Part shown: piece after piece, positions 34,997 to 52,653 of the stretch
Layout of the letters: each line of letters starts with the position of its first letter
Position numbering within the stretch: position 1 is the first letter of the stretch
Assembly: GCF_025742995.1 (NCBI RefSeq)
Contig: NZ_JAOVQM010000007.1
Span: forward strand, 1 to 64,000
Direction: 5' to 3'
DNA length: 64,000 nucleotides
DNA from: Paracholeplasma manati
Lineage (GTDB): Bacteria > Bacillota_I > Bacilli_A > Acholeplasmatales > UBA5453
Notes under the pieces: model-generated
The model's database searches: none
What the model saw: the letters and a program-made list of their open reading frames with translations, nothing else
What the model was told of the DNA's origin: nothing
Position numbers and translations under genes: made by a program

Positions 34997-35032
34997 AAAT
35001 GTAGTTCTGATTAAATCAGGGCTGCATTTTTA
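34997..35032. terminator. bidirectional terminator between convergent genes
   Basis: A 14-bp stem (with G-U pairs) from AAATGTAGTTCTGA and TCAGGGCTGCATTT, with A run left and T run right. Serves the sensor gene and the minus-strand ABC exporter. Confidence 0.82.
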
Positions 35033-36637
35033 TTTAAGGTCGATGATTTTGGTTGGTTTGATGTCTTTAAGATCACGATGTGAAACCATGACGATGGTTT
35101 TTTGTTTTAAAGCTTTGAGATTGGATAAAACCTTTTTCTCAGTATCGCTATCGAGGGAAGCGGTAATTTCATCTAGTAATAAAATAGGTGCGTCTTTTAA
35201 CAAGGCTCTCGCAATCGATAGTCTTTCCAATTGTCCAATCGATAACCCCGCTCCCATTTCTTTAAGCTTTGTATCAAATCCTTCTGGGGTTTTGAGAATA
35301 TCGTCATAGATCACTGCGATTTGACACGCTTCAATGACTTTTTCCATCGGTATCGACTTACCTAAGGTGAGGTTATCTAAAATCGAGTTCGATAATAAGT
35401 AATAAGATTGAGGTACATAAGAGAAGAACTGTCTGGTGCTTTCCGATAAAGCATAGGAGGCTTCATCGATTTTCAGTTCAATCGAACCTGTCGTTGGTGA
35501 CATGAGCCCCAACAACAATTTGATTAACGTGGTTTTACCTTTTCCTGACTCCCCTTTAATCCAAACCAATTCGCCAGGTTTGAGTTCGAAGGATAGATTA
35601 TCTAAAACCAGTTTTTGTTCATATTTAAAGGATACTTTTTTGAAATCAATTTTCTTAAATGGTTGAAGGGGTATTTTCGTGGTTGATTCTTTTTCTAACC
35701 CATCCATCATGCGTACACGATCGAGAGAAGCTTGCCACTGATGGTATTTGATGACGATATTGGAGAGCCCAGAAAATGGGCTTTGAATATTTTGGACGAG
35801 TTGTATGATGGCGACCAAACTACCAAATACGATGGAACCTTGGCTTAAACGATAGGTACCAAATAGAATGGCGAATAAATACCCAAAGGCGAAAAACCCA
35901 TGTAATCCCAAACCAGTTAACGCGGAGACCCATTGTTTCTTCATGCGTTTTTGATAGAAGTGAAAAGAGGCGTTTTCAAGGTTTTTTACTTGAATGCTTT
36001 CTGCTTCAAACGCTTTAATGACTTCAATATGGGTTAGACTTTCCTGCAACGACTGATAGAGTTGATCTTCAGCGTTCAGTGCCTCTTTTTGAATCTGCTT
36101 GATTTGTTTGGATAATAGCCTTGATAAGACAAATAGCAGTAATCCCAACGTTAAGAATAATACAGCGAATAACCAGTCCAAAATGAATAAAACAACAAAG
36201 GCACCTAAGAATCTAAACACATAAAATACCAGTTTCGGGAATAAATCATACACGCCATCGGAAATCATCGTGATATCCGATTTAAAGTGGTTGATATAGA
36301 TGGCGGAATGATTCTCAGCGGTATCTTGGATCTTCGCTTTTAAGAGTTTTTGAAAGAGATGTTGTCGTAATTCACCTTCAAGTTGGTAGGATGCTTTCGC
36401 TTTGTAGTATTGGTTATAAGCAGTTAATCCAACCTGGATGATCATGATGAAGATCAATAGACCACCATACAAGAATAATTTAGATTGATTCGTATAGGTA
36501 TCAATCGCTAATTTGGATAGGTAAGCGAACAAAATCGCCGTGAATGACAACACCAAAGAAAACACCGATAAAATCGATAAGGGTGTTCTAATTTTGGATT
36601 GATAAGGTTTTAGTAAAGGGTTGATTTTAAATTTCAT
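35030..36637 (-). CDS. ABC exporter (fused permease and ATPase) of the peptide locus
   Basis: This 535-aa half-transporter has six membrane helices (about 15-300) and a nucleotide-binding domain (about 320-535) with Walker A GESGKGKTT, signature LSIGQ instead of LSGGQ, Walker B ILLLDE and the H-loop SHRD. No C39 peptidase domain is present, so it does not itself cut leaders. It is divergent from the kinase/PqqD operon and probably exports its product. The start at 36637 (MKFKINPLL) is chosen; upstream codons to 36763 overlap the divergent gene and promoters. Confidence 0.88.
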   Translation of the reverse strand: MKFKINPLLKPYQSKIRTPLSILSVFSLVLSFTAILFAYLSKLAIDTYTNQSKLFLYGGLLIFIMIIQVGLTAYNQYYKAKASYQLEGELRQHLFQKLLKAKIQDTAENHSAIYINHFKSDITMISDGVYDLFPKLVFYVFRFLGAFVVLFILDWLFAVLFLTLGLLLFVLSRLLSKQIKQIQKEALNAEDQLYQSLQESLTHIEVIKAFEAESIQVKNLENASFHFYQKRMKKQWVSALTGLGLHGFFAFGYLFAILFGTYRLSQGSIVFGSLVAIIQLVQNIQSPFSGLSNIVIKYHQWQASLDRVRMMDGLEKESTTKIPLQPFKKIDFKKVSFKYEQKLVLDNLSFELKPGELVWIKGESGKGKTTLIKLLLGLMSPTTGSIELKIDEASYALSESTRQFFSYVPQSYYLLSNSILDNLTLGKSIPMEKVIEACQIAVIYDDILKTPEGFDTKLKEMGAGLSIGQLERLSIARALLKDAPILLLDEITASLDSDTEKKVLSNLKALKQKTIVMVSHRDLKDIKPTKIIDLK

Positions 36638-36710
36638 ATAGAGAACCTCTATCCGTATTGTATCACAGTAAAACCCAATATCACACTGTATTTCATCTAC
36701 CAAACAAGGT

Positions 36711-36716
36711 ATAATG
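36711..36716 (+). promoter_or_regulatory. -10 box of the kinase/peptidase/nucleotidyltransferase operon
   Basis: TATAAT 22 nt before the ATG; the about 100 bp between the two start codons also hold the divergent exporter promoter (minus-strand TACAAT, at about 36656-36661). Confidence 0.55.
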
Positions 36717-36737
36717 AGGATAAGTGTGAGGTAAACC

Positions 36738-37829
36738 ATGCAGAGGTATGAAATCGCAGGCATCCCAATTTCAATTGAATATCATTACGATGATTATTTG
36801 AAAAACAACATCGAAGCGTATGTGAAAAAGGTGAACCCTAGTTATGTCATTAAAACCATTTTGACCGACCACATTTCACCTTTATTCAACCCTTTTATGC
36901 AAGATACCTATCGTCGTTTTTATCAAGATGACAAGCATCATACCGTTCAAGTGGTGGATGTGAATAACCAAGTCAAATATGAGATCAAACGAACCCATGA
37001 CTACAAAGAAGTCTATATCTCGATGGTCGAAAGGTTATCTAAAAAACCAGCTGAAATGGAATACATCTTTTTATCGATGGTGTTTCTAGATATCGCAACC
37101 CTAGAAGGATTTGTCCCATTACACGCATCATGTGTTATCAAACAAAATGAAGCCTATCTATTTAGTGCCCCATCGGGCACAGGTAAAAGTACCCACGCCG
37201 CATTCTATCAAACTGAACTCAATGGTTTGATCCTAAACGACGATAAACCCATCATAAAAAATCAACACGTTTATGGTACCCCATTTTCCGGCAAAACCGC
37301 TTTAAATCAAAACCAGGTTTACCCATTAAAAGCCATTTATTTTATAGAACAAGGCAGCATCAATTCAATATCTAAACTACCCATCGATGACGCTTCCAAA
37401 CGATTACTCAAAAATATCGCTAGACCGACCACGAAAGATACATGGGAAGCATTATTACCCCATATCAATCAACTTTTAAATGAAACACCGATATATCTGG
37501 CTTATCTCACATTAAACCCGAACAGTGTTTATATGACCTACTATGAACCCAATAAGGAGAACCCTATGAAAATCAAACCAGGCTTCATCATCAAAACCAT
37601 TGGTTTACGTTATATGGTGTTACCTATCGACGCACAAGCACTCCATTTCAATGGCATCATGACTTTGAATAAATCTGGCAAGCGCTTGTTTGAAGCGCTT
37701 GAAACAGAACAAACTTTAGAATCTTTAACTCAACTGCTCATGGACCACTATGAAGTATCCTTTGAAGATGCGAGAAAAGACGTCATTAAGTTTGTTGAAA
37801 CCTTGAAAGAAAAAGACCTGTTATGTTAA
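36738..37829 (+). CDS. HPr-kinase-like protein fused to a C-terminal PqqD domain
   Basis: This 363-aa protein has an HprK-like kinase fold: Walker A SAPSGTGKST (143-152) and the following LNDDKP strand, with LHASC before it. Residues about 276-363 form a PqqD-type domain (MKIKPGFIIK to the end), the RRE fold that binds RiPP leader peptides. HprK-like kinases and PqqD proteins occur together in lasso and related peptide clusters, for instance paeninodin, where the kinase phosphorylates the peptide. A fusion of the two would bring kinase and leader recognition together. It overlaps the next gene by 7 bp. Confidence 0.85.
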   Translation: MQRYEIAGIPISIEYHYDDYLKNNIEAYVKKVNPSYVIKTILTDHISPLFNPFMQDTYRRFYQDDKHHTVQVVDVNNQVKYEIKRTHDYKEVYISMVERLSKKPAEMEYIFLSMVFLDIATLEGFVPLHASCVIKQNEAYLFSAPSGTGKSTHAAFYQTELNGLILNDDKPIIKNQHVYGTPFSGKTALNQNQVYPLKAIYFIEQGSINSISKLPIDDASKRLLKNIARPTTKDTWEALLPHINQLLNETPIYLAYLTLNPNSVYMTYYEPNKENPMKIKPGFIIKTIGLRYMVLPIDAQALHFNGIMTLNKSGKRLFEALETEQTLESLTQLLMDHYEVSFEDARKDVIKFVETLKEKDLLC

Positions 37830-38248
37830 AAACGATCATCGACAACGATACTTTTTTTGAAGTGGTTAAAACTGAACTAGCGCATAACAAAACCGTGAGT
37901 TTCAAAGTGAAGGGCCAATCGATGTGGCCTTTTTACCATGACGGACTAACCACGGTTTTGGTATCATCCGCTACATCTCTCAAAAAATATGATGTTGTTT
38001 TAGCCAATTATCAAGGGAAAGTCATTTTACACAGAATCATTCAAATACAAGGTGATTCAATCACCCTTCGTGGAGACGCCACCTTTCGAAAAGAAGTGGT
38101 GTCTGTTAAAGAGGTGTTTGCGAAAGTGGTTGAACATCAAACCAAAAAAACCATCCCATCGAATCAAATAAGATATCGATTTAAAGTATGGCTTTGGGTC
38201 CATAACCCACTTAGAAAACCATTCATCCGTTTGAGGTCAATTAAATGA
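37823..38248 (+). CDS. SipW/ER-type S26 (S24-like) signal peptidase homologue
   Basis: This 141-aa protein has the S26 serine motif GQSMWP (Ser33), then the strand VILHRI with His70 where bacterial signal peptidase I has Lys, and the GDA motif (84-86). That is the Ser-His arrangement of SipW/ER-type enzymes. There is no clear N-terminal membrane helix, so it may be cytosolic or peripheral. Short proteins like this sit beside PqqD and nucleotidyltransferase genes in peptide clusters, where it may cut the leader. Its ends overlap both neighbours (7 and 4 bp). Confidence 0.85.
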   Translation: MLKTIIDNDTFFEVVKTELAHNKTVSFKVKGQSMWPFYHDGLTTVLVSSATSLKKYDVVLANYQGKVILHRIIQIQGDSITLRGDATFRKEVVSVKEVFAKVVEHQTKKTIPSNQIRYRFKVWLWVHNPLRKPFIRLRSIK

Positions 38249-39414
38249 ATACGAATGAAGCCTTATTCAAAGCGACAGCGCTCGCATTGAAACAACAAAA
38301 GATTGATTTTGACATTGCTGATGAACCCGGTTTTTTCAAACTGATGTTGAATAGTGGCTTATCTGGGATCATCATACCTTATCTAGACACCAGCAAGTAT
38401 TCAAACACATTCATTCAAAAAACCAATTCAACCCTATATGCATTCATCCATCAAGACCAAAAACAAAAAGTTTTAATCAACCAGATTAAAACAACCTTTC
38501 AACAACATAATATTGATCATATCTTTTTAAAAGGCACCAAACTCAAACAACTCTATCCCGACACCTACATGCGTGGGATGGGGGATATCGATGTATTGGT
38601 TCGCTCGGACTTAGATGTCATTAAAAACCACTTTAAGACCTTAGGTATTACCTTAGAATCCAGAACCCTTCAACACGATCAATACATCACCAAAGACGAT
38701 TTATTGATTGAAATCCATCCCAGCATTCATAAAGACTTTAACCCTAAGTATCAAACCTACTTTAAATCTGCTTGGGAACACACAGTGTTAGTCACAGGGT
38801 GTGAGTATACATTGACCCCGACCTTTGAAGTCATCTATCTGGTGTATCATTTGGCCAAGCATGTAGAATCCTCTGGCATAGGCTTACGCAGTCTATTGGA
38901 TATCGCTGTTTATATTGAGAAGAACTATGATCAAATCGATGTGAAAGCATTGAACGATACATTAACATCATTACAAATGACAAAGTTCTTTCAAACCATT
39001 TTATACTTGAACAAAGTCTATTTTGGGTTAGAAGTGCCATTACTGGATTCATCTTTTACCATGAATGATGCATTGATAGAACAAGTAACTACCTATTTCT
39101 TAACCTCTGGTATTCATGGTAAAGGCAGTGATTTCAACGCCATGGCACCTAGACTCGCCGCTTCTGAAAATAAAGGTAAATCGAAGTTTAAAGTCTTGTT
39201 AAGGATCGCACTCCCTAAGATGGTGGATGCGAGAGGAATGTATCCTGTACTCAATAAACACCATTATCTTTATCCATTCATGATGTTTCATCGTATCATC
39301 AAACTTATTTTCTTTAAACGACAATCTTCATTGAAGAAAATCAGAAATTTAAATGAAAGCAACTCGAAACGAAGTGAGATAGAACAACTCTTTGAGGACA
39401 TCGGTATTTACTGA
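38245..39414 (+). CDS. nucleotidyltransferase family protein (NTP_transf_5-like)
   Basis: This 389-aa protein has the NTase core FLKGTKLKQLYPDTYMRGMGDIDVLVR (about residues 92-118): the G-x-x-L helix and the D-x-D metal pair, as in PF14907. A helical C-terminal region of about 200 residues follows. These proteins recur beside HprK/PqqD/S26 genes in Firmicute peptide loci; a role in AMP/NMP transfer to the peptide is suspected but not proven. It closes the three-gene operon, with a terminator after it. Confidence 0.87.
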   Translation: MNTNEALFKATALALKQQKIDFDIADEPGFFKLMLNSGLSGIIIPYLDTSKYSNTFIQKTNSTLYAFIHQDQKQKVLINQIKTTFQQHNIDHIFLKGTKLKQLYPDTYMRGMGDIDVLVRSDLDVIKNHFKTLGITLESRTLQHDQYITKDDLLIEIHPSIHKDFNPKYQTYFKSAWEHTVLVTGCEYTLTPTFEVIYLVYHLAKHVESSGIGLRSLLDIAVYIEKNYDQIDVKALNDTLTSLQMTKFFQTILYLNKVYFGLEVPLLDSSFTMNDALIEQVTTYFLTSGIHGKGSDFNAMAPRLAASENKGKSKFKVLLRIALPKMVDARGMYPVLNKHHYLYPFMMFHRIIKLIFFKRQSSLKKIRNLNESNSKRSEIEQLFEDIGIY

Positions 39415-39425
39415 TGTCTTTTTTA
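39397..39425 (+). terminator. terminator of the kinase/peptidase/nucleotidyltransferase operon
   Basis: GACATC pairs with GATGTC around a 10-nt loop, then TTTTTT. The left arm is in the last codons of the gene. Confidence 0.75.
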
Positions 39426-39457
39426 CATAATAATTACTTAAAAATGTCTAGTTTGAA

Positions 39458-39486
39458 TTGCTTAGTATTTATACTAGTGCTATAAT
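39458..39486 (+). promoter_or_regulatory. promoter of the precursor-like peptide gene with spacer dyad
   Basis: TTGCTT and TATAAT are 17 bp apart. In the spacer TAGTAT (39463-39468) and ATACTA (39471-39476) form a dyad that could bind a regulator. Confidence 0.65.
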
Positions 39487-39520
39487 AAACCCAAACGCAA
39501 GTACTGTGGGAGGTATTTTA

Positions 39521-39649
39521 ATGTTTGAAAAAGAAGTGTACGAAGCCCCAGTGATTGAAGTAACTGAGTTCGAACTCAGTGAATCAATTGCTGAAAGTGC
39601 GAATTCAGGCATGGGCAGTTTAGGTTTTGATGAGATTTGGGGGAACTAA
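39521..39649 (+). CDS. 42-aa precursor-like peptide (RiPP candidate)
   Basis: This short gene has its own promoter and GGGAGG 8 nt before the ATG. The peptide begins with an acidic leader containing Y7-x2-P10-x-I12-x4-F17, which fits the Y-x-x-P-x-L-x-x-x-x-F motif bound by PqqD/RRE domains of lasso-type clusters. The C-terminal part, from about residue 29, is small and Gly/Ser-rich (SGMGSLGFDEIWGN). If cut before G30, Asp37 and Glu38 would be ring positions 8 and 9 as in lasso peptides. No lasso cyclase or B2 protease is visible, so the chemistry is unknown. It overlaps the following secreted-protein gene (TAATG). Confidence 0.75.
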   Translation: MFEKEVYEAPVIEVTEFELSESIAESANSGMGSLGFDEIWGN

Positions 39650-42237
39650 TGATGAGAAAATTATTCATTCTTTTATCATTTGTGGTTCTATTCGCCATTT
39701 CAGGTACTGTGGTTGCGGCAGCACGCCCAGCAAACGTAAATGTTACCATTACATCATCCTTTGATAATGATAACAAAAATCTTAGTCACTCAATTACTTC
39801 ATTGCCAGTAGGTAATGTCTTTCAATTGAACGCTAGCAACATCCAAGCTTCTTACACATTCGCTTTTTGGGTAATCAATGGCGTTGTCAGAGATGATTTG
39901 GCTGCTACGGATTCAATTAGACTTCAAACAAGTATGAACATACAAGCAGTTTTCCACAAAGCTGGAGAATATGCTGTTTTATTTGTGGACTCTAATGGTA
40001 AACTAATTTCCACTCAATATGTATTGGAAAACGGATCTGTTACTCCACCAAGTTATGCTGGATTTACAAAACCTGGGTTACAAGTTAATTCGAGTGAACC
40101 TTGGAAATCATTGGAAGGCGCAACTACTTTTGATAATATCCAATCCTCAAGAGTATACGTTTTACAATATACCGCAGGAACGCCTGTTTCAGTAACACTT
40201 TCAATTACTGGTGGTGTTGCTACACCATCAAATCCAAATAGAAATGATTTAGTTACATTGGTTGCAAGTGATATTCCAAACTTCAAGTATTGGAAAGATG
40301 GCAATGGACAAGTTCTTTCTTATCAATCAACATTTGTATTTACAGCAGTCAAAGATGTCACAATTATTGCTGAAACCAGTGATGTTAAAACACCTGAAAC
40401 ATTGGTAACGATGTCATCTGATTTAGCAATTCGTGAAAACTATGAAACTTATGTTGGTCGTTTTGAATTAGAAGCTGGACATGAGCTTGTTGAATGGGGT
40501 TTCTTACTATCTGACGAAACATTAGGTTTATTAAGTTTTGAAACACCTAATGTTATTATTGCAAAATCAAATACATACAACCTTGAAACAAATGAGTTCG
40601 TAATGAGTTTTTCTGAAGTAACCTTCTCAAGTATTAGAGCATACGTTCTAATTAACAATGGGACATCTGTTGAAGAAATATTAAGTGCTCCAGCAGCAAT
40701 CACCTCAGATCTAATTATTTCTGAGTACCTAGAAGGAAGTTCAAGCAATAAGGCAATAGAAATATTCAATGGTACTGGTTCATCAATTGATTTAAGCAAT
40801 TATAGCATCAAACTATACACTAATGGTTCACCAACTGCAGGAACTACACTTGTTTTAAGTGGGACACTCTTAAACGGTGAAACCTATGTAATTTCTAATT
40901 CTGGTTCCAATGCAACAATACTTGCCATTGCAGATATAACTAATGGAGTAGCTAATTTTAACGGTGATGATGCAATAGAACTATTAAAAAACGATATCGT
41001 AATTGATACTTTTGGTGTTGTTGGAGAGGATCCTGGTACATCTTGGGCTGTTGGATCTGGTGCAACTGCTGAATATACATTAGTTAGAAAGACAAGTGTT
41101 ACTAGTCCTAATGTAAGTTGGAATGTTAATGAGTGGGAAGTATACCCTCAAGATTCAACTTCGTTCTTAGGTAGTCATTCACTTCAAACAGCAACAGATT
41201 CACAAAAAGTAGTTATTGACGCAAATGGATTGAATTTAGTTAGTGAAGTTAAACAAAACACAACTTTATCGTTGCCTTCTTCTGGCGCAAATGGATCCAC
41301 AATATCTTGGACCTCAGATACTACTGAAGTTATAACAAATGCAGGTGTGGTAACATTACCTTCTGGACAACCAGTCGTAGTTATAATGACTGCAACAGTT
41401 TCATTGAATGGTACTGAAAAACAAGTTGCATTTGAAGTTACAGTAGGTTTGACTGATTTAGAAAAAGCTACAGCTGACAGGGATGCAATTTCTCTAACTT
41501 TAAATTATACAGAAGCAACTACTATTACCCTTTCTAATAGTGGTCTAAATGGATCAACCATATCATGGGCTAGTGATAACGCATTAATTAATGCATCATC
41601 GGGTAGTGTGACTATGCCAGGATCAGGACAGGTTGAAGTTACTCTAACTGCAACTATAGCAAATGGCACTGCCGAGTTAACAAAGGATTTCATAATAACA
41701 GTTGGATCAAGTACTCAAACTGAGGAACTATTATTTTCTTATAATTTCTTAGATGGTGGTTCTAGTAATAATAGTGCATATGCAAGTACAAATATAAGTA
41801 CAAATGTTTCATATGCTGGGGATAATCCAGGAGGAACATCAGGAACAACTGCTTGGGTAGCTAATTATGCAAACTTAAGTTTATCAACAGGTACTAGATT
41901 AGGTGGTAAATTGGTATCAGTCGTATCAAATGACAATACTAATTCAGCTAATTTGAAAACTGCTTTTACATATTCAAATATATTAACTAAAGTAGAATTG
42001 TTAGGTTTAACCACATTTGGTACTGCAGGAAATGTAGGAAATATTTATTTACAAGTTTCTACAGATGGAGTATCTTGGACAACGGTGAGTACTCAAACAT
42101 TTGCATCAACTATAACTTTTGGAAGTTTAAATGTATCTTCTGGTAATTATATTAGAGTCTTAGTACAAATTACTGCATCAACCACAATCTCAGGTATTCA
42201 ATTTACAGGATTAAAGGTATACGGATACCCGATTTAA
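39649..42237 (+). CDS. secreted LTD-domain protein, N-terminal part of a frameshifted nuclease
   Basis: This 862-aa exported protein has a signal peptide (ending about residue 26), repeat-like beta domains, a lamin-tail domain (about 355-510, starting LIISEYLEGSSSNKAIEIFN), two bacterial Ig-like domains (about 520-680) and a jelly-roll domain that runs to the stop. The reading frame ends at TAA 42235, and the following sequence continues in another frame with an Ig-like domain and an endonuclease I domain. The whole would be an extracellular LTD nuclease of about 1170 aa. It starts at the ATG overlapping the peptide stop (ATGATG; the second ATG is also possible), with GGGGGAA inside the peptide gene. 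It is more AT-rich than its neighbours. Confidence 0.85.
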   Translation: MMRKLFILLSFVVLFAISGTVVAAARPANVNVTITSSFDNDNKNLSHSITSLPVGNVFQLNASNIQASYTFAFWVINGVVRDDLAATDSIRLQTSMNIQAVFHKAGEYAVLFVDSNGKLISTQYVLENGSVTPPSYAGFTKPGLQVNSSEPWKSLEGATTFDNIQSSRVYVLQYTAGTPVSVTLSITGGVATPSNPNRNDLVTLVASDIPNFKYWKDGNGQVLSYQSTFVFTAVKDVTIIAETSDVKTPETLVTMSSDLAIRENYETYVGRFELEAGHELVEWGFLLSDETLGLLSFETPNVIIAKSNTYNLETNEFVMSFSEVTFSSIRAYVLINNGTSVEEILSAPAAITSDLIISEYLEGSSSNKAIEIFNGTGSSIDLSNYSIKLYTNGSPTAGTTLVLSGTLLNGETYVISNSGSNATILAIADITNGVANFNGDDAIELLKNDIVIDTFGVVGEDPGTSWAVGSGATAEYTLVRKTSVTSPNVSWNVNEWEVYPQDSTSFLGSHSLQTATDSQKVVIDANGLNLVSEVKQNTTLSLPSSGANGSTISWTSDTTEVITNAGVVTLPSGQPVVVIMTATVSLNGTEKQVAFEVTVGLTDLEKATADRDAISLTLNYTEATTITLSNSGLNGSTISWASDNALINASSGSVTMPGSGQVEVTLTATIANGTAELTKDFIITVGSSTQTEELLFSYNFLDGGSSNNSAYASTNISTNVSYAGDNPGGTSGTTAWVANYANLSLSTGTRLGGKLVSVVSNDNTNSANLKTAFTYSNILTKVELLGLTTFGTAGNVGNIYLQVSTDGVSWTTVSTQTFASTITFGSLNVSSGNYIRVLVQITASTTISGIQFTGLKVYGYPI

Positions 42238-42356
42238 CCCCTACAGACACTACAGCTCCTGTTATAACCATCTCTAATGATGCTGTTTATAACTATACTG
42301 TAGGGGATACCTGGAGTACTTCAACTGCACTGTCATGGTGTAGTGCAAACGACAAT

Positions 42357-43160
42357 GTGGATGGTGCAGTCTTCTGTGAACTCAATGATACACAAGTCGA
42401 CACCTCACAAGCGGGAACATATACAATTACATACACAGCAGAAGATAGTAGTAACAACTTAGCTACACTCCAGAAAACCATTACTGTTTCAGCAGAATCT
42501 AGCAGCGGTTTAACCTTAACTGGATATTATTCATCTGCTAACGGATTAACAGACAGTGCTTTGATTCAACAATTAAGAAGTATATTGAATAGCACCTATG
42601 CCGGTAAAAACTATGATTATGCCGGTAGTGGTGAAGCTTTATGGGATACCGATGAAGACCCAAATAACCCAAATAATCTCATTGAGTTCTATACAGGACA
42701 ATCAAGAGCTGGGGCTTGGGATGCAGGTGTTACCTATAATCGTGAACACATATTTCCCCAATCCTTATTGGGTGTCAGTGCAAGTGGCGTGAATGCTGCT
42801 TCAGATTTACACAATCTTAAGCCCGCAGACGCTTCCATTAACTCTTCAAGAGGAAATAAGTTTTATGATTTGGTAACAAACTCAAATTCTTATTATCCCG
42901 AAAGAACCGAAATCCATGGCGATATCGCGAGAATGTTATTCTATATGGTGATTATGTATGACGAATACACATTGGTTAGTACAGTTCCAGTAGTCTATCA
43001 AATGGCGAATTTAACGACACTTTTGCAGTGGCACTTAGCTGACCCAGTGGATGCGTTTGAAATGAGAAGAAATGACCGTATTCAATACCATCAAGGAAAC
43101 CGTAACCCATTCATCGATTACCCAGAGCTGATCAATTATATGAATATTGGTTCAGCTTAA
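42357..43160 (+). CDS. endonuclease I domain, C-terminal part of the frameshifted secreted nuclease
   Basis: This 267-aa frame has the end of a DUF5011 Ig-like domain and then a full endonuclease I (EndA/NucM-type, PF04231) domain: NREHIFPQSLLG, DLHNLKPADASINSSRGNKFYD and GNRNPFIDYPEL are its hallmark motifs. It lacks a signal peptide, ribosome site and complete first domain. In frame, the Ig domain begins upstream (PTDTTAPVITI, from about 42240), directly after the stop of the LTD protein. So it is the C-terminal half of one gene broken by a one-base change, and probably not translated alone. Confidence 0.8.
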   Translation: MDGAVFCELNDTQVDTSQAGTYTITYTAEDSSNNLATLQKTITVSAESSSGLTLTGYYSSANGLTDSALIQQLRSILNSTYAGKNYDYAGSGEALWDTDEDPNNPNNLIEFYTGQSRAGAWDAGVTYNREHIFPQSLLGVSASGVNAASDLHNLKPADASINSSRGNKFYDLVTNSNSYYPERTEIHGDIARMLFYMVIMYDEYTLVSTVPVVYQMANLTTLLQWHLADPVDAFEMRRNDRIQYHQGNRNPFIDYPELINYMNIGSA

Positions 43161-43222: not shown

Positions 43223-43258
43223 AGTTATGATATGATTGTTATCAAAGGAGTGATTTAT

Positions 43259-44290
43259 ATTAGAAAACTCTTATTAATCATCCCCCTATTATTAATTATA
43301 TTGGTGGGATGTACAACTTCATCCGATTTAGAACCGCCATCTGACTTTAGATTTGATGATGGATTTTTATATTGGACTGAGGTTAAAGGTGCTGAACATT
43401 ACGTCATTGAAATCAATGGCTCCAATAAGTTAGCCTATAATAATAAACTAGATTTGAAGGATTACAATACCGGCAATTACACTGCCCGTATCGCAACCTT
43501 CTCTAAAGGGAAACTTTCCCCATTTACCAACCTCATTCAATTTAAACTCATTCAAGATGAAGAACTATCCAATTTAACCATCACAGATACCGAGATTTCA
43601 TGGGATGCAATGGAAGGTTTAACCTATCAAATATCGATAAAAAATGTCGAGACGAACGAAACATCAGTTCAAAATCTCTTACAAAACATGTATAACTATG
43701 AAAGCTTAGAAGATGGTCTATACGACATTGAAATCAAAGTATTGTTAGATGAAATTGTCGTCACTTCCAAATCTATACGCTTTGAAATTGGTACCTTTGA
43801 CTATGTAAGTGAAGCTGGTATGGTCTTAGACATTGAAACACCAGATACCTTATTCGCGGGCGAAATTCCATTGGTTTTAGATGAAGACTACACAGTGGAT
43901 GAATTTGGACTCATCATCGATTCTGAAAAGATCGATGCGTTGACGAATCACTTTGTTTTAACAACTACGAAAGACGATATTACTGTATATCGATTTGTGA
44001 AATTGGTTGTTATCGCTATTCCTGAAATAATCTCCTCTGGTTCTGTGAATTATGAGGGTGTGGACTTGGTATTTACCTTTAATTTAAAAGGGGGTTCTTT
44101 CCAAGGTTTAGGCGGTAATGATATTTCATTTGATGACTATACGTTCTCAAATGATACCTTAACCATTCACGCTTCATACATTGATGAAATCATCGAAGCG
44201 GATGCGAATAGAACCATGCTCATCCTAACGTATGTCCTACAAAATGACCCACATGTGGTCATTGGATATTTATTTATCACACTACCTTAA
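43259..44290 (+). CDS. lipoprotein with fibronectin-III-like domains, possible ATT start
   Basis: This protein of about 343 aa has a lipoprotein signal (lipobox ILVGC) and two to three beta-sandwich repeats of fibronectin III style (SDFRFDDGFLYWTEVKGAEHYVIEI and later ISWDAMEGLTYQISI), then a C-terminal beta domain. No enzyme motif is seen. The only good ribosome site, AAAGGAG at 43244-43250, is 8 nt before an ATT codon (43259); an in-frame ATG at 43232 and a GTG at 43250 lie before or inside that site, and -10-like TATGAT boxes lie at 43226-43236. ATT initiation is therefore likely but unproven; the alternative is ATG at 43232. Confidence 0.78.
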   Translation: MRKLLLIIPLLLIILVGCTTSSDLEPPSDFRFDDGFLYWTEVKGAEHYVIEINGSNKLAYNNKLDLKDYNTGNYTARIATFSKGKLSPFTNLIQFKLIQDEELSNLTITDTEISWDAMEGLTYQISIKNVETNETSVQNLLQNMYNYESLEDGLYDIEIKVLLDEIVVTSKSIRFEIGTFDYVSEAGMVLDIETPDTLFAGEIPLVLDEDYTVDEFGLIIDSEKIDALTNHFVLTTTKDDITVYRFVKLVVIAIPEIISSGSVNYEGVDLVFTFNLKGGSFQGLGGNDISFDDYTFSNDTLTIHASYIDEIIEADANRTMLILTYVLQNDPHVVIGYLFITLP

Positions 44291-51381: not shown

Positions 51382-52653
51382 ATGCCTTATAAAGCCCTAA
51401 AAACAAGACTCTATCTTAATCCAAATCAACATCAGTTTCTATTATCTTTAATGCGTGCTTCAAGAAGTCTTTACAATCAAGCGCTCTATAATGTGAGACA
51501 ACATTTTATCAAAACCAATGGCTACTTATCCTATAACGAAAACTATCAATTACTGAAAGATAGTGAACATTATCGTTACTTGAATACTATTCAGAGTCAA
51601 ATGGTCATTCGTAAGGTAGATGAAGCGATGAAAGGATTCTTTGGATCTTTGAAGTCTAAGGTTAAACAAACCATTAGATTACCTAGATACTTAAAGAAAG
51701 ATACCTATTATCCCATCTACGACAGAATGGTCTATAAACCTAATAATGAAATCTATACATTACCCAGAAGTAACTTCATTAAGAAAGTATCGAAAGAACT
51801 AGAAAAGGATTCAAAACAGATTCATAAACATACATATGAGTTAAATGAAGTAGACGCTTTATCTCTAGACATCCAAACACCAGAATGTATCCAAAACAAA
51901 GAAATCAAAGAAATCACCATCAAGTCCTACTATGATGGCAAATACATTGAAGTGATTTATGTCTATCTAGATGAAACTCCTAAAATAGAAACCAAAGATT
52001 ATACAGAAACCATGGGGATTGATTTTGGGTATAACAACCTAGCCTTTTGTTCAGTAACCAATAATGTGCATTTATTGTTAGATGGGAAACGATTAAAGAG
52101 TATGAATCAGTTTTATCATAAACGAATCGCGAAACTAGCGAGTATTAGACCAAACCAAAACACACTAACCAAACAAATGATTCGTCTAATGGATAAACGT
52201 AACCATCAAATGGATTATGGGATCTATAAAGCAGCTAAACTCATTATCCATCACGCAATAGAAAATAAAGTGAAACAAATCATCATTGGTTATAATGATA
52301 CCTTCAAAGATGAAAGACTATCTGATACCTATAATCAATGGACAAAGAGTATTCCAATCGCGAGACTTAGAGATCGAATCATCTATCTAGCAGAACAGCT
52401 AGGTATTGAGACTAAAGTGATCAATGAAGCATACACGTCAAAAGCTTCATATCTCGACCAAGATGATTTCGTGAATGGTGATTTCTCTGGTGTTAGAATC
52501 AAAAGAGGTTTATATAAGAATCAAAAAGGCACTTTGATTAACGCGGACCAAAATGCCTCATTAAATATGATTCGAAAAGGTAATCCCGATGCCTTATGGA
52601 TAGGGAATAGAGGTGTGAACACACCTCAGCGTACATACCTATTTGGTGTGTAG
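51382..52653 (+). CDS. tnpB: TnpB RNA-guided nuclease-like protein of an IS605/IS1341 element
   Basis: This 423-aa protein has the N-terminal OrfB helix-turn-helix region and the RuvC-like nuclease core: GIDFG (first Asp, about residue 213), INEAYTSKAS (Glu, about 352) and NADQNASLNM (Asp, about 394). The usual zinc-finger Cys pairs between the Glu and last Asp are absent; the segment with SGVRIKRGLYKNQKG belongs to the known zinc-free subgroup. Catalytic residues are intact, so it may be active. TATAAT and AAAGGAGG precede the ATG. A hairpin GAGGTGTG/CACACCTC covers its last codons, where the guide RNA scaffold usually lies. Confidence 0.9.
   Translation: MPYKALKTRLYLNPNQHQFLLSLMRASRSLYNQALYNVRQHFIKTNGYLSYNENYQLLKDSEHYRYLNTIQSQMVIRKVDEAMKGFFGSLKSKVKQTIRLPRYLKKDTYYPIYDRMVYKPNNEIYTLPRSNFIKKVSKELEKDSKQIHKHTYELNEVDALSLDIQTPECIQNKEIKEITIKSYYDGKYIEVIYVYLDETPKIETKDYTETMGIDFGYNNLAFCSVTNNVHLLLDGKRLKSMNQFYHKRIAKLASIRPNQNTLTKQMIRLMDKRNHQMDYGIYKAAKLIIHHAIENKVKQIIIGYNDTFKDERLSDTYNQWTKSIPIARLRDRIIYLAEQLGIETKVINEAYTSKASYLDQDDFVNGDFSGVRIKRGLYKNQKGTLINADQNASLNMIRKGNPDALWIGNRGVNTPQRTYLFGV
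52610..52627 (+). ncRNA. possible omega-RNA hairpin at the tnpB 3' end
   Basis: A perfect 8-bp hairpin with AA loop (GAGGTGTG, CACACCTC) lies within the final tnpB codons. In IS605-family elements the guide RNA overlaps this place. No expression evidence. Confidence 0.4.

Follow-up and report, generated by a model that had tools for sequence, protein, structure and literature searches.

Which kind of peptide is made at a locus that encodes a kinase, a leader-recognition domain, a peptidase and a short precursor and lacks a recognized cyclase, and with what does the product act? We addressed this question in a 64,000-nt stretch of Paracholeplasma manati DNA (contig NZ_JAOVQM010000007.1, positions 1 to 64,000), referred to below as the window. 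The original prediction described a locus at 35030-43160 with an ABC exporter, an HprK-PqqD fusion, an S26 peptidase, an NTP_transf_5 protein, a 42-aa precursor and a secreted LTD/nuclease; sequence and Pfam confirmed these genes in place, the first five of them within 35030-39649. Lpp and PsmN names denote equivalents in the known systems compared below.

35030..36637, minus strand: MsbA-like ABC exporter, LppD equivalent, divergent (Pfam ABC_membrane/ABC_tran)
36738-37829, plus strand: whole gene of the HprK-like kinase fused to PqqD
36738..37562, plus strand: HprK-like kinase domain, LppK equivalent, with His129/Lys150/Asp168-Asp169 (alignments, Foldseek, order-wide search)
37614..37823, plus strand: PqqD/RRE domain, LppB equivalent, fused to the kinase (PF05402, 1.9e-13)
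37823..38248, plus strand: S26/SpI-like leader peptidase, LppS equivalent, with Ser33-His70-Asp85 (PF00717/PF10502, S24/S26)
38245..39414, plus strand: NTP_transf_5 nucleotidyltransferase-fold protein, LppN/PsmN equivalent, with a GDID motif (PF14907, 1.8e-42)
39508..39513, plus strand: precursor ribosome-binding site GGGAGG (sequence; kept in Paracholeplasma relatives)
39521..39649, plus strand: 42-aa precursor with leader YEAPVI..., predicted acceptor Ser26 and core end EIWGN (profile searches and alignment)

The exporter ORF as listed extends to 36763, and its likely start is the ATG at 36637; the exporter is likewise divergent in the related loci L049, L050, L053, L054, L059, L060 and L065. 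The kinase and S26 genes overlap by 7 nt, and the S26 and NTase genes by 4 nt. Foldseek assigned the PEPCK/HprK fold to the kinase domain, and the columns of the peptidase residues S33, H70 and D85 were invariant in the family alignment. The RRE domain has a candidate Asn and Asp at a spacing that fits N33/D70 of LppB, an equivalence of spacing only, as LppB itself gave no sequence match. Close sequence relatives in the PDB were found neither for the kinase-RRE protein, the S26 peptidase and the NTase nor for the RRE alone. Assignment of the kinase to HPr-rel-A (TIGR04352) was rejected, since this HprK-related kinase A model gave 17.4 bits, far below its cut-off of 200. The NTP_transf_5 gene is present as a single copy in its own genome. 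Lone NTP_transf_5 genes, away from kinase, RRE and precursor genes, were observed in the f4-g12 genomes (L046, L047, L048, L051, L052), and some of these adjoin polysaccharide-type genes. Elsewhere in the window, an ORF at 51382-52653 resembles, by eye only, an IS200/IS605-type TnpB protein.

A profile built from relatives detected 31 precursor copies in 24 of the 160 genomes of the order (E <= 1e-4). Given this recurrence and the conserved residues, a chance ORF was rejected as the origin of the precursor. The family alignment (n=23) reads YExPx[IV]E[VI]xEFxxx[ED][STA]IAxS, and the core behind this block is variable, with EEIWG as a frequent end; the Tyr is invariant, and the Pro, Glu, Ile, Ala and Ser are near-invariant. 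The Y-x2-P-x-I-x4-F motif previously reported in the leader of the window peptide is indeed present. When Tyr is numbered 1, 22 of 23 sequences have Ser at position 20, and 4 of these have no further Ser or Thr downstream. This conservation makes the Ser, numbered 26 in the window peptide (Ser26), the predicted phosphate acceptor. Only S, A or T occur at positions 16 and 18 (n=23), and the leader would be cut after one of these positions: the -3/-1 preference of signal peptidase favors 18, and the LPP register favors 16. The promoter that had been ascribed to the precursor is unproven, as a promoter scan gave only shuffle-level matches, though the region upstream of the precursor is conserved among relatives.

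Precursor-like genes were also seen in other settings. A second LPP-like locus type (L142, L143, L145) has a Trp-rich precursor core end (SWW, SWF, EWW) and a later kinase gene, and in L142 and L143 a secreted partner of a different kind (GASIR..GLRFYA) lies between these two genes. Family f3 contains divergent clusters (L069-L083) with precursors of the form YxKPx[IL]..EDI.A.S; two of them, L071 and L075, border capsule-type genes (Wzz/CpsB-like, by eye), as noted for LPP in Bacilli. In L137 and L139 of the same family, precursor-like ORFs lie directly 5' of tandem in-frame secreted Endonuclease I proteins of 678-694 aa.

The precursor and the enzymes occurred together. PqqD was detected in 22 of 24 precursor-positive genomes versus 35 of 136 precursor-free genomes (Fisher 9e-10, a value inflated by kinship), and the kinase was found in 22 of the 24 in an order-wide search. 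Neither PqqD nor kinase was detected in G010 and G111, where the precursor is present. The precursor family recurs with the same enzymes, as the original prediction had proposed to check. The RRE is fused to the kinase in Paracholeplasma and is a separate gene in most other relatives. In loci of the Acholeplasma laidlawii type, the interval from the RRE gene to the precursor contains no open S26 frame (L252, 4480-5120; L132, 4200-4800), and in G031 the kinase lies ~7 kb upstream. The main text of a published A. laidlawii vesicle/cell proteome paper does not mention the gene. A named genome collection was searched with the NTase as query, and the order of precursor and module (described below), together with the enzymes, was also found in Izemoplasmatales (L222) and in an unclassified MAG (L228). 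Judged from these sequences, the locus represents a divergent, LPP-like branch that spans Acholeplasmatales and Izemoplasmatales and in which Paracholeplasma has its RRE and kinase fused. LPP has been reported as restricted to Bacillota (PMC13381572). Of note, a Synergistaceae MAG (L243, 5133-9615) carries LPP-like kinase, RRE, S26 and NTase genes and a precursor-like ORF, with a radical SAM-like enzyme (by eye) among them.

The gene set had been thought to define a pathway that differs from described classes. This is not so, as both the gene set and the leader type match the Linear Polyphosphorylated Peptides (LPP), which were described by Popov et al. in May 2026 from the lpp cluster of Paenibacillus alginolyticus DSM5050 (PMC13381572). 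That cluster comprises LppA, K, B, S, D and N. LppK adds 1-4 phosphates to Ser3 of the core, the SipW-like LppS removes the leader after F-E-T with the aid of the RRE, and LppN could be deleted without visible effect (PMC13381572). As in LPP, the kinase of the window has the H-K-D-D residues (H129, K150, D168, D169) and the HprK/PEPCK fold, the peptidase is SpI-like with Ser/His/Asp, and an NTP transferase and an MsbA-like exporter belong to the cluster. The RRE of LPP stands alone, and that of Paracholeplasma is fused to the kinase; of the LPP leader YxxPxVLxHQxIxFETxxS, the YxxPx[IV] part is kept, with E-[STA]-I-A-x-S at the cleavage region instead of the rest. Given the fused RRE and a leader that has no HQxIxFET, we call the locus LPP-like and claim no strict LPP membership. 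In an ungapped register with LPP, its E15-T16 correspond to [ED]15-[STA]16, and Ser3 of LPP corresponds to position 19. Part of the original proposal for the product was retained: the product is probably a linear, phosphorylated peptide on which the S26 enzyme makes the cut. Its other part, nucleotidylation with AMP (+329), appears less likely than a hexose on the phosphate, because PsmN of pseudomycoidin provides a precedent for the latter (review PMC9266682).

No asparagine-synthase-type cyclase (PF00733) was matched in the window's own genome (G000; 1.87 Mb, 99.45% complete), and nothing exceeded the PF00733 cut-off in 12 family genomes. The lasso B2 domain (PF13471) was likewise not found over cut-off in 100 genomes of relatives. 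A cyclase elsewhere in the genome, which would have spoken against the original prediction, is thus not seen at PF00733 sensitivity, and we rejected a lasso cluster with a distant cyclase.

The gene directly downstream of the precursor was not recognized in the original prediction as a partner of the peptide. The precursor stop overlaps the start codon of this gene (TAATG), which encodes a secreted protein with a conserved N-terminal module.

39649..42237, plus strand: secreted modular partner with signal peptide, N-terminal module, LTD, atrophied Ig and F5/8-like regions (Pfam LTD, 2.1e-15)
39727..40686, plus strand: ~320-aa N-terminal module of the partner, predicted to be a string of small beta domains (profile E 1.2e-128)

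No Pfam family matched the module over cut-off. AlphaFold2 with 13 sequences predicted a chain of small beta domains (pLDDT 86, pTM 0.77). A fold search of this model gave partial matches, Ig/FN3-like for the last domain and InlB B-repeat-like for the middle, and no whole-chain match; partial matches of this kind give no function. Such a predicted fold would suit a surface protein but is uninformative as to what the module does. A signal-peptide protein with this module directly follows 28 of the 31 precursors, also where the enzymes lie elsewhere. The three exceptions are G010:C26, where the module gene is upstream, G033:C49, where the contig ends, and G069, where the precursor is degenerate; this last copy (L253 / G069:C14:61355) has an internal stop and no module gene after it. 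Conversely, of the 34 module genes that are full-length or nearly so (E <= 1e-40), 27 lie directly behind a precursor; the other seven are in G011, G006 (two), G010:C26, G021 (one), G100 and G051:C2 (contig end), and about six of the 34 have no recognized precursor upstream. Past the module the partners diverge into LTD, Ig, EndoI or other regions. By this arrangement, the downstream secreted gene is a conserved, hypervariable partner of the precursor and not a chance neighbor. The pairing looks new, and the cassette is undescribed as far as we searched.

Next, close relatives were compared over the locus.

39574..42227, plus strand: segment replaced in the conspecific UBA6235, comprising the precursor core and the whole partner gene

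UBA6235 (a MAG, L209, labeled as the same species) was 92.8% identical to the window over 35790-39574, i.e., from the enzymes into the precursor leader. Over 39574-42227 identity fell to ~31-58% per 150-nt bin, and it returned to 90.5% at 42227-42300, where the UBA6235 contig ends. The precursor of UBA6235 is intact, and its partner is an 895-aa protein with the module. At the protein level, the NTases of the two strains were 91% identical and the modules 36-38%; with UBA6150, a different species, the values were 70% for the NTase and 74% for the module. A second pair, the A. laidlawii-type G031/G029, was 92.4% identical to just past the precursor and ~50% in the partner. In both within-species pairs, which lie on draft contigs, the biosynthetic genes are ~92-93% identical and the replacing partner ~45-55%. 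The precursor core was swapped along with the partner in the window/UBA6235 pair, and the precursor was kept in G031/G029. The pattern, seen in two pairs only, is a sign of exchange by recombination, and such partner replacement within a species looks new.

The distal end of the replaced segment coincides with the place where the partner ends and a nuclease frame begins.

42156..43160, plus strand: Ig-like linker and Endonuclease I in the -1 frame relative to the partner, without a signal peptide (PF04231, 3.5e-34)
42220..42245, plus strand: junction of partner stop and -1 register (TAC CCG ATT TAA CCCC)

The LTD protein and the nuclease had been read as one secreted gene product. They are separate frames: the LTD frame ends at 42237, and the Endonuclease I frame, open over 42156-43160 in the -1 register, begins 79 nt 5' of the LTD stop. 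No EndoI start codon lies near the junction, and none was found at a constant place beside the stop. The nuclease was in the -1 register in the first 12 of 12 precursor-linked LTD/EndoI loci and in four later ones (three, and one from the named collection), giving 16 of 16 phylogenetically non-independent loci (window 42156-42245, L053, L054, L056, L059, L060, L064, L065, L126, L128, L129, L131, L175, L176, L177, L216); among EndoI genes without a precursor, 0 of 22 were split this way. The binomial value of 1.5e-5 for the register is not a true probability, as a single inherited event is possible. Sequencing error was rejected as the cause of the split, since all 16 loci show this register although their assemblies are separate. 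We also asked whether the two parts were ancestrally fused in frame; LTD/EndoI relatives without a precursor do have both parts in frame, but with other linkers, and the lost base could not be placed. Downstream of EndoI, a lipoprotein-like gene at 43232-44290 may be part of the operon, and such genes occupy the same position in most relatives (L053, L054, L056, L059, L064, L065, L175-L177).

Because identity between the strains resumes at the junction, the latter is, by these alignments, also a recombination boundary. The split could then simply reflect this boundary, with each partner bringing its own stop and the EndoI segment being an untranslated or independently started remnant. We regard this as a real possibility while leaning somewhat away from it. 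It accounts for the resumed conspecific identity and is consistent with the 4 of 16 junctions that have no good slip site (L065, L126, L177, L131). At most junctions, however, the stop is closely preceded by a slip-prone run (C CCG, G GGG, A AAA), and the EndoI frames are open and recognizable over many genomes, with neither a start codon at a constant distance nor a signal peptide. The -1 register is a candidate programmed frameshift, and the -1 placement of EndoI behind precursor-linked partners looks new.

From the gene content, the conserved residues, the genome-wide lack of lasso enzymes, the pairing, the replacement within species and the -1 register, we infer that an LPP-like RiPP pathway is joined to a strain-variable secreted partner, a reading that we consider fairly probable. 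The kinase-fused RRE domain would bind the YxxPx[IV] leader, as established for LPP, and the HprK-like domain would phosphorylate the conserved Ser26, perhaps repeatedly. The NTP_transf_5 enzyme may cap the phosphate, most likely with a hexose as PsmN does; this step is weak because LppN had no activity in the published system. The S26 enzyme would cut off the leader near Ser22-Ala24, leaving a linear acidic peptide of 18-20 aa that the ABC exporter would release. Given the pairing and the joint exchange, the peptide most likely acts with the secreted partner outside the cell, which the EndoI tail would reach only if some ribosomes shift frame. As strains have swapped core and partner, or the partner alone, as a cassette, diversifying selection probably acts on the system, for strain-specific recognition, competition or surface variation. 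We hold a fuller version only tentatively and think it rather doubtful: a polymorphic two-part system in which the phosphorylated RiPP recognizes, arms or decorates the partner through the common module, core and partner are swapped as cassettes, and programmed -1 frameshifting at the cassette boundary places the nuclease tail on a fraction of the protein.

The pathway might instead be a plain LPP pathway that makes a free peptide with its own job, the secreted protein being only a co-regulated neighbor. Such clusters have been published from Bacilli without a partner and often in capsule loci (PMC13381572), and some f3 relatives also border capsule-type genes, which keeps this reading in contention as a minority view. 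It leaves unexplained why the module adjoins 28 of 31 precursors even with the enzymes elsewhere, why precursor and partner overlap at stop and start, and why core and partner were replaced together in one pair. The same TAATG overlap, with its constant spacing, could mark the small ORF as a translational leader that tunes a variable surface protein while the enzymes act on another substrate, and the A. laidlawii-type pair, in which the precursor was kept and the partner replaced, would agree with such a role. We find this improbable, as conservation of the Y-P-I/V RRE motif and of the E-[STA]-I-A-x-S block is at the level of amino acids and the precursor strongly co-occurs with the RRE and kinase genes. 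Least probable is a lasso cluster that has lost its cyclase and B2 protease or has their genes at another place. The RRE, kinase and NTase are common to paeninodin-type clusters, and weak matches to lasso PqqD models were obtained, but two Pfam searches of the genome turned up neither a cyclase-type gene nor one for B2, an S26 peptidase takes the place of B2, and the leader has YxxP, not the WxxP of paeninodin.

The reading that we favor, an LPP-like pathway joined to a secreted partner, concerns a real, conserved system whose biosynthesis is of a known, LPP-like class and whose partner cassette is undescribed to the extent of our searches. A fixed, hypervariable protein partner is a concrete lead on the role of LPP, which was left open in PMC13381572. 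The locus extends kinase-tailored RiPPs to the wall-less Mollicutes, without any lasso pathway, and defines a ~320-aa secreted module that has no Pfam family. Exchange of cassettes between strains, to which the locus points, commonly goes with competition, self-recognition or surface variation. Frameshifting, if this is what the -1 register reflects, would put the nuclease onto only a fraction of the secreted protein.

Compared with known systems, the locus is closest to LPP, with which it shares the RRE, the HprK-like kinase, the SpI/SipW-like Ser-His-Asp peptidase, the NTP transferase, the MsbA-like exporter, the YxxPx[V/I] leader and the lack of a cyclase. It differs from LPP in that the leader is without HQxIxFET, the conserved Ser lies at +4 and not at +3 on the LPP register, the genome has no lasso system, and the precursor is paired with a variable secreted protein. 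Paeninodin and pseudomycoidin (PadeK, PsmK, PsmN) resemble it in the HprK-like kinase and NTase acting on Ser and in leader recognition by the RRE. In contrast to these, the window has neither a macrolactam cyclase nor a B2 protease, the leader has Tyr (YxxP) in place of Trp (WxxP), and the predicted kinase site is near the N-terminus of the core instead of the C-terminus. The partner is similar to the extracellular LTD/EndoI nucleases of Izemoplasmatales and to Shewanella ExeM, which are also secreted and combine LTD and nuclease domains, and such proteins have been linked to the use of environmental DNA (PMC8289736, PMC6085458). Since LTD nucleases of Izemoplasmatales serve DNA degradation (PMC8289736), DNA use is by analogy a plausible setting here, but some partners have no nuclease, which points to a broader role. 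Unlike those nucleases, the partner described here is preceded by a RiPP precursor, has a common N-terminal module and is followed by its nuclease in the -1 frame.
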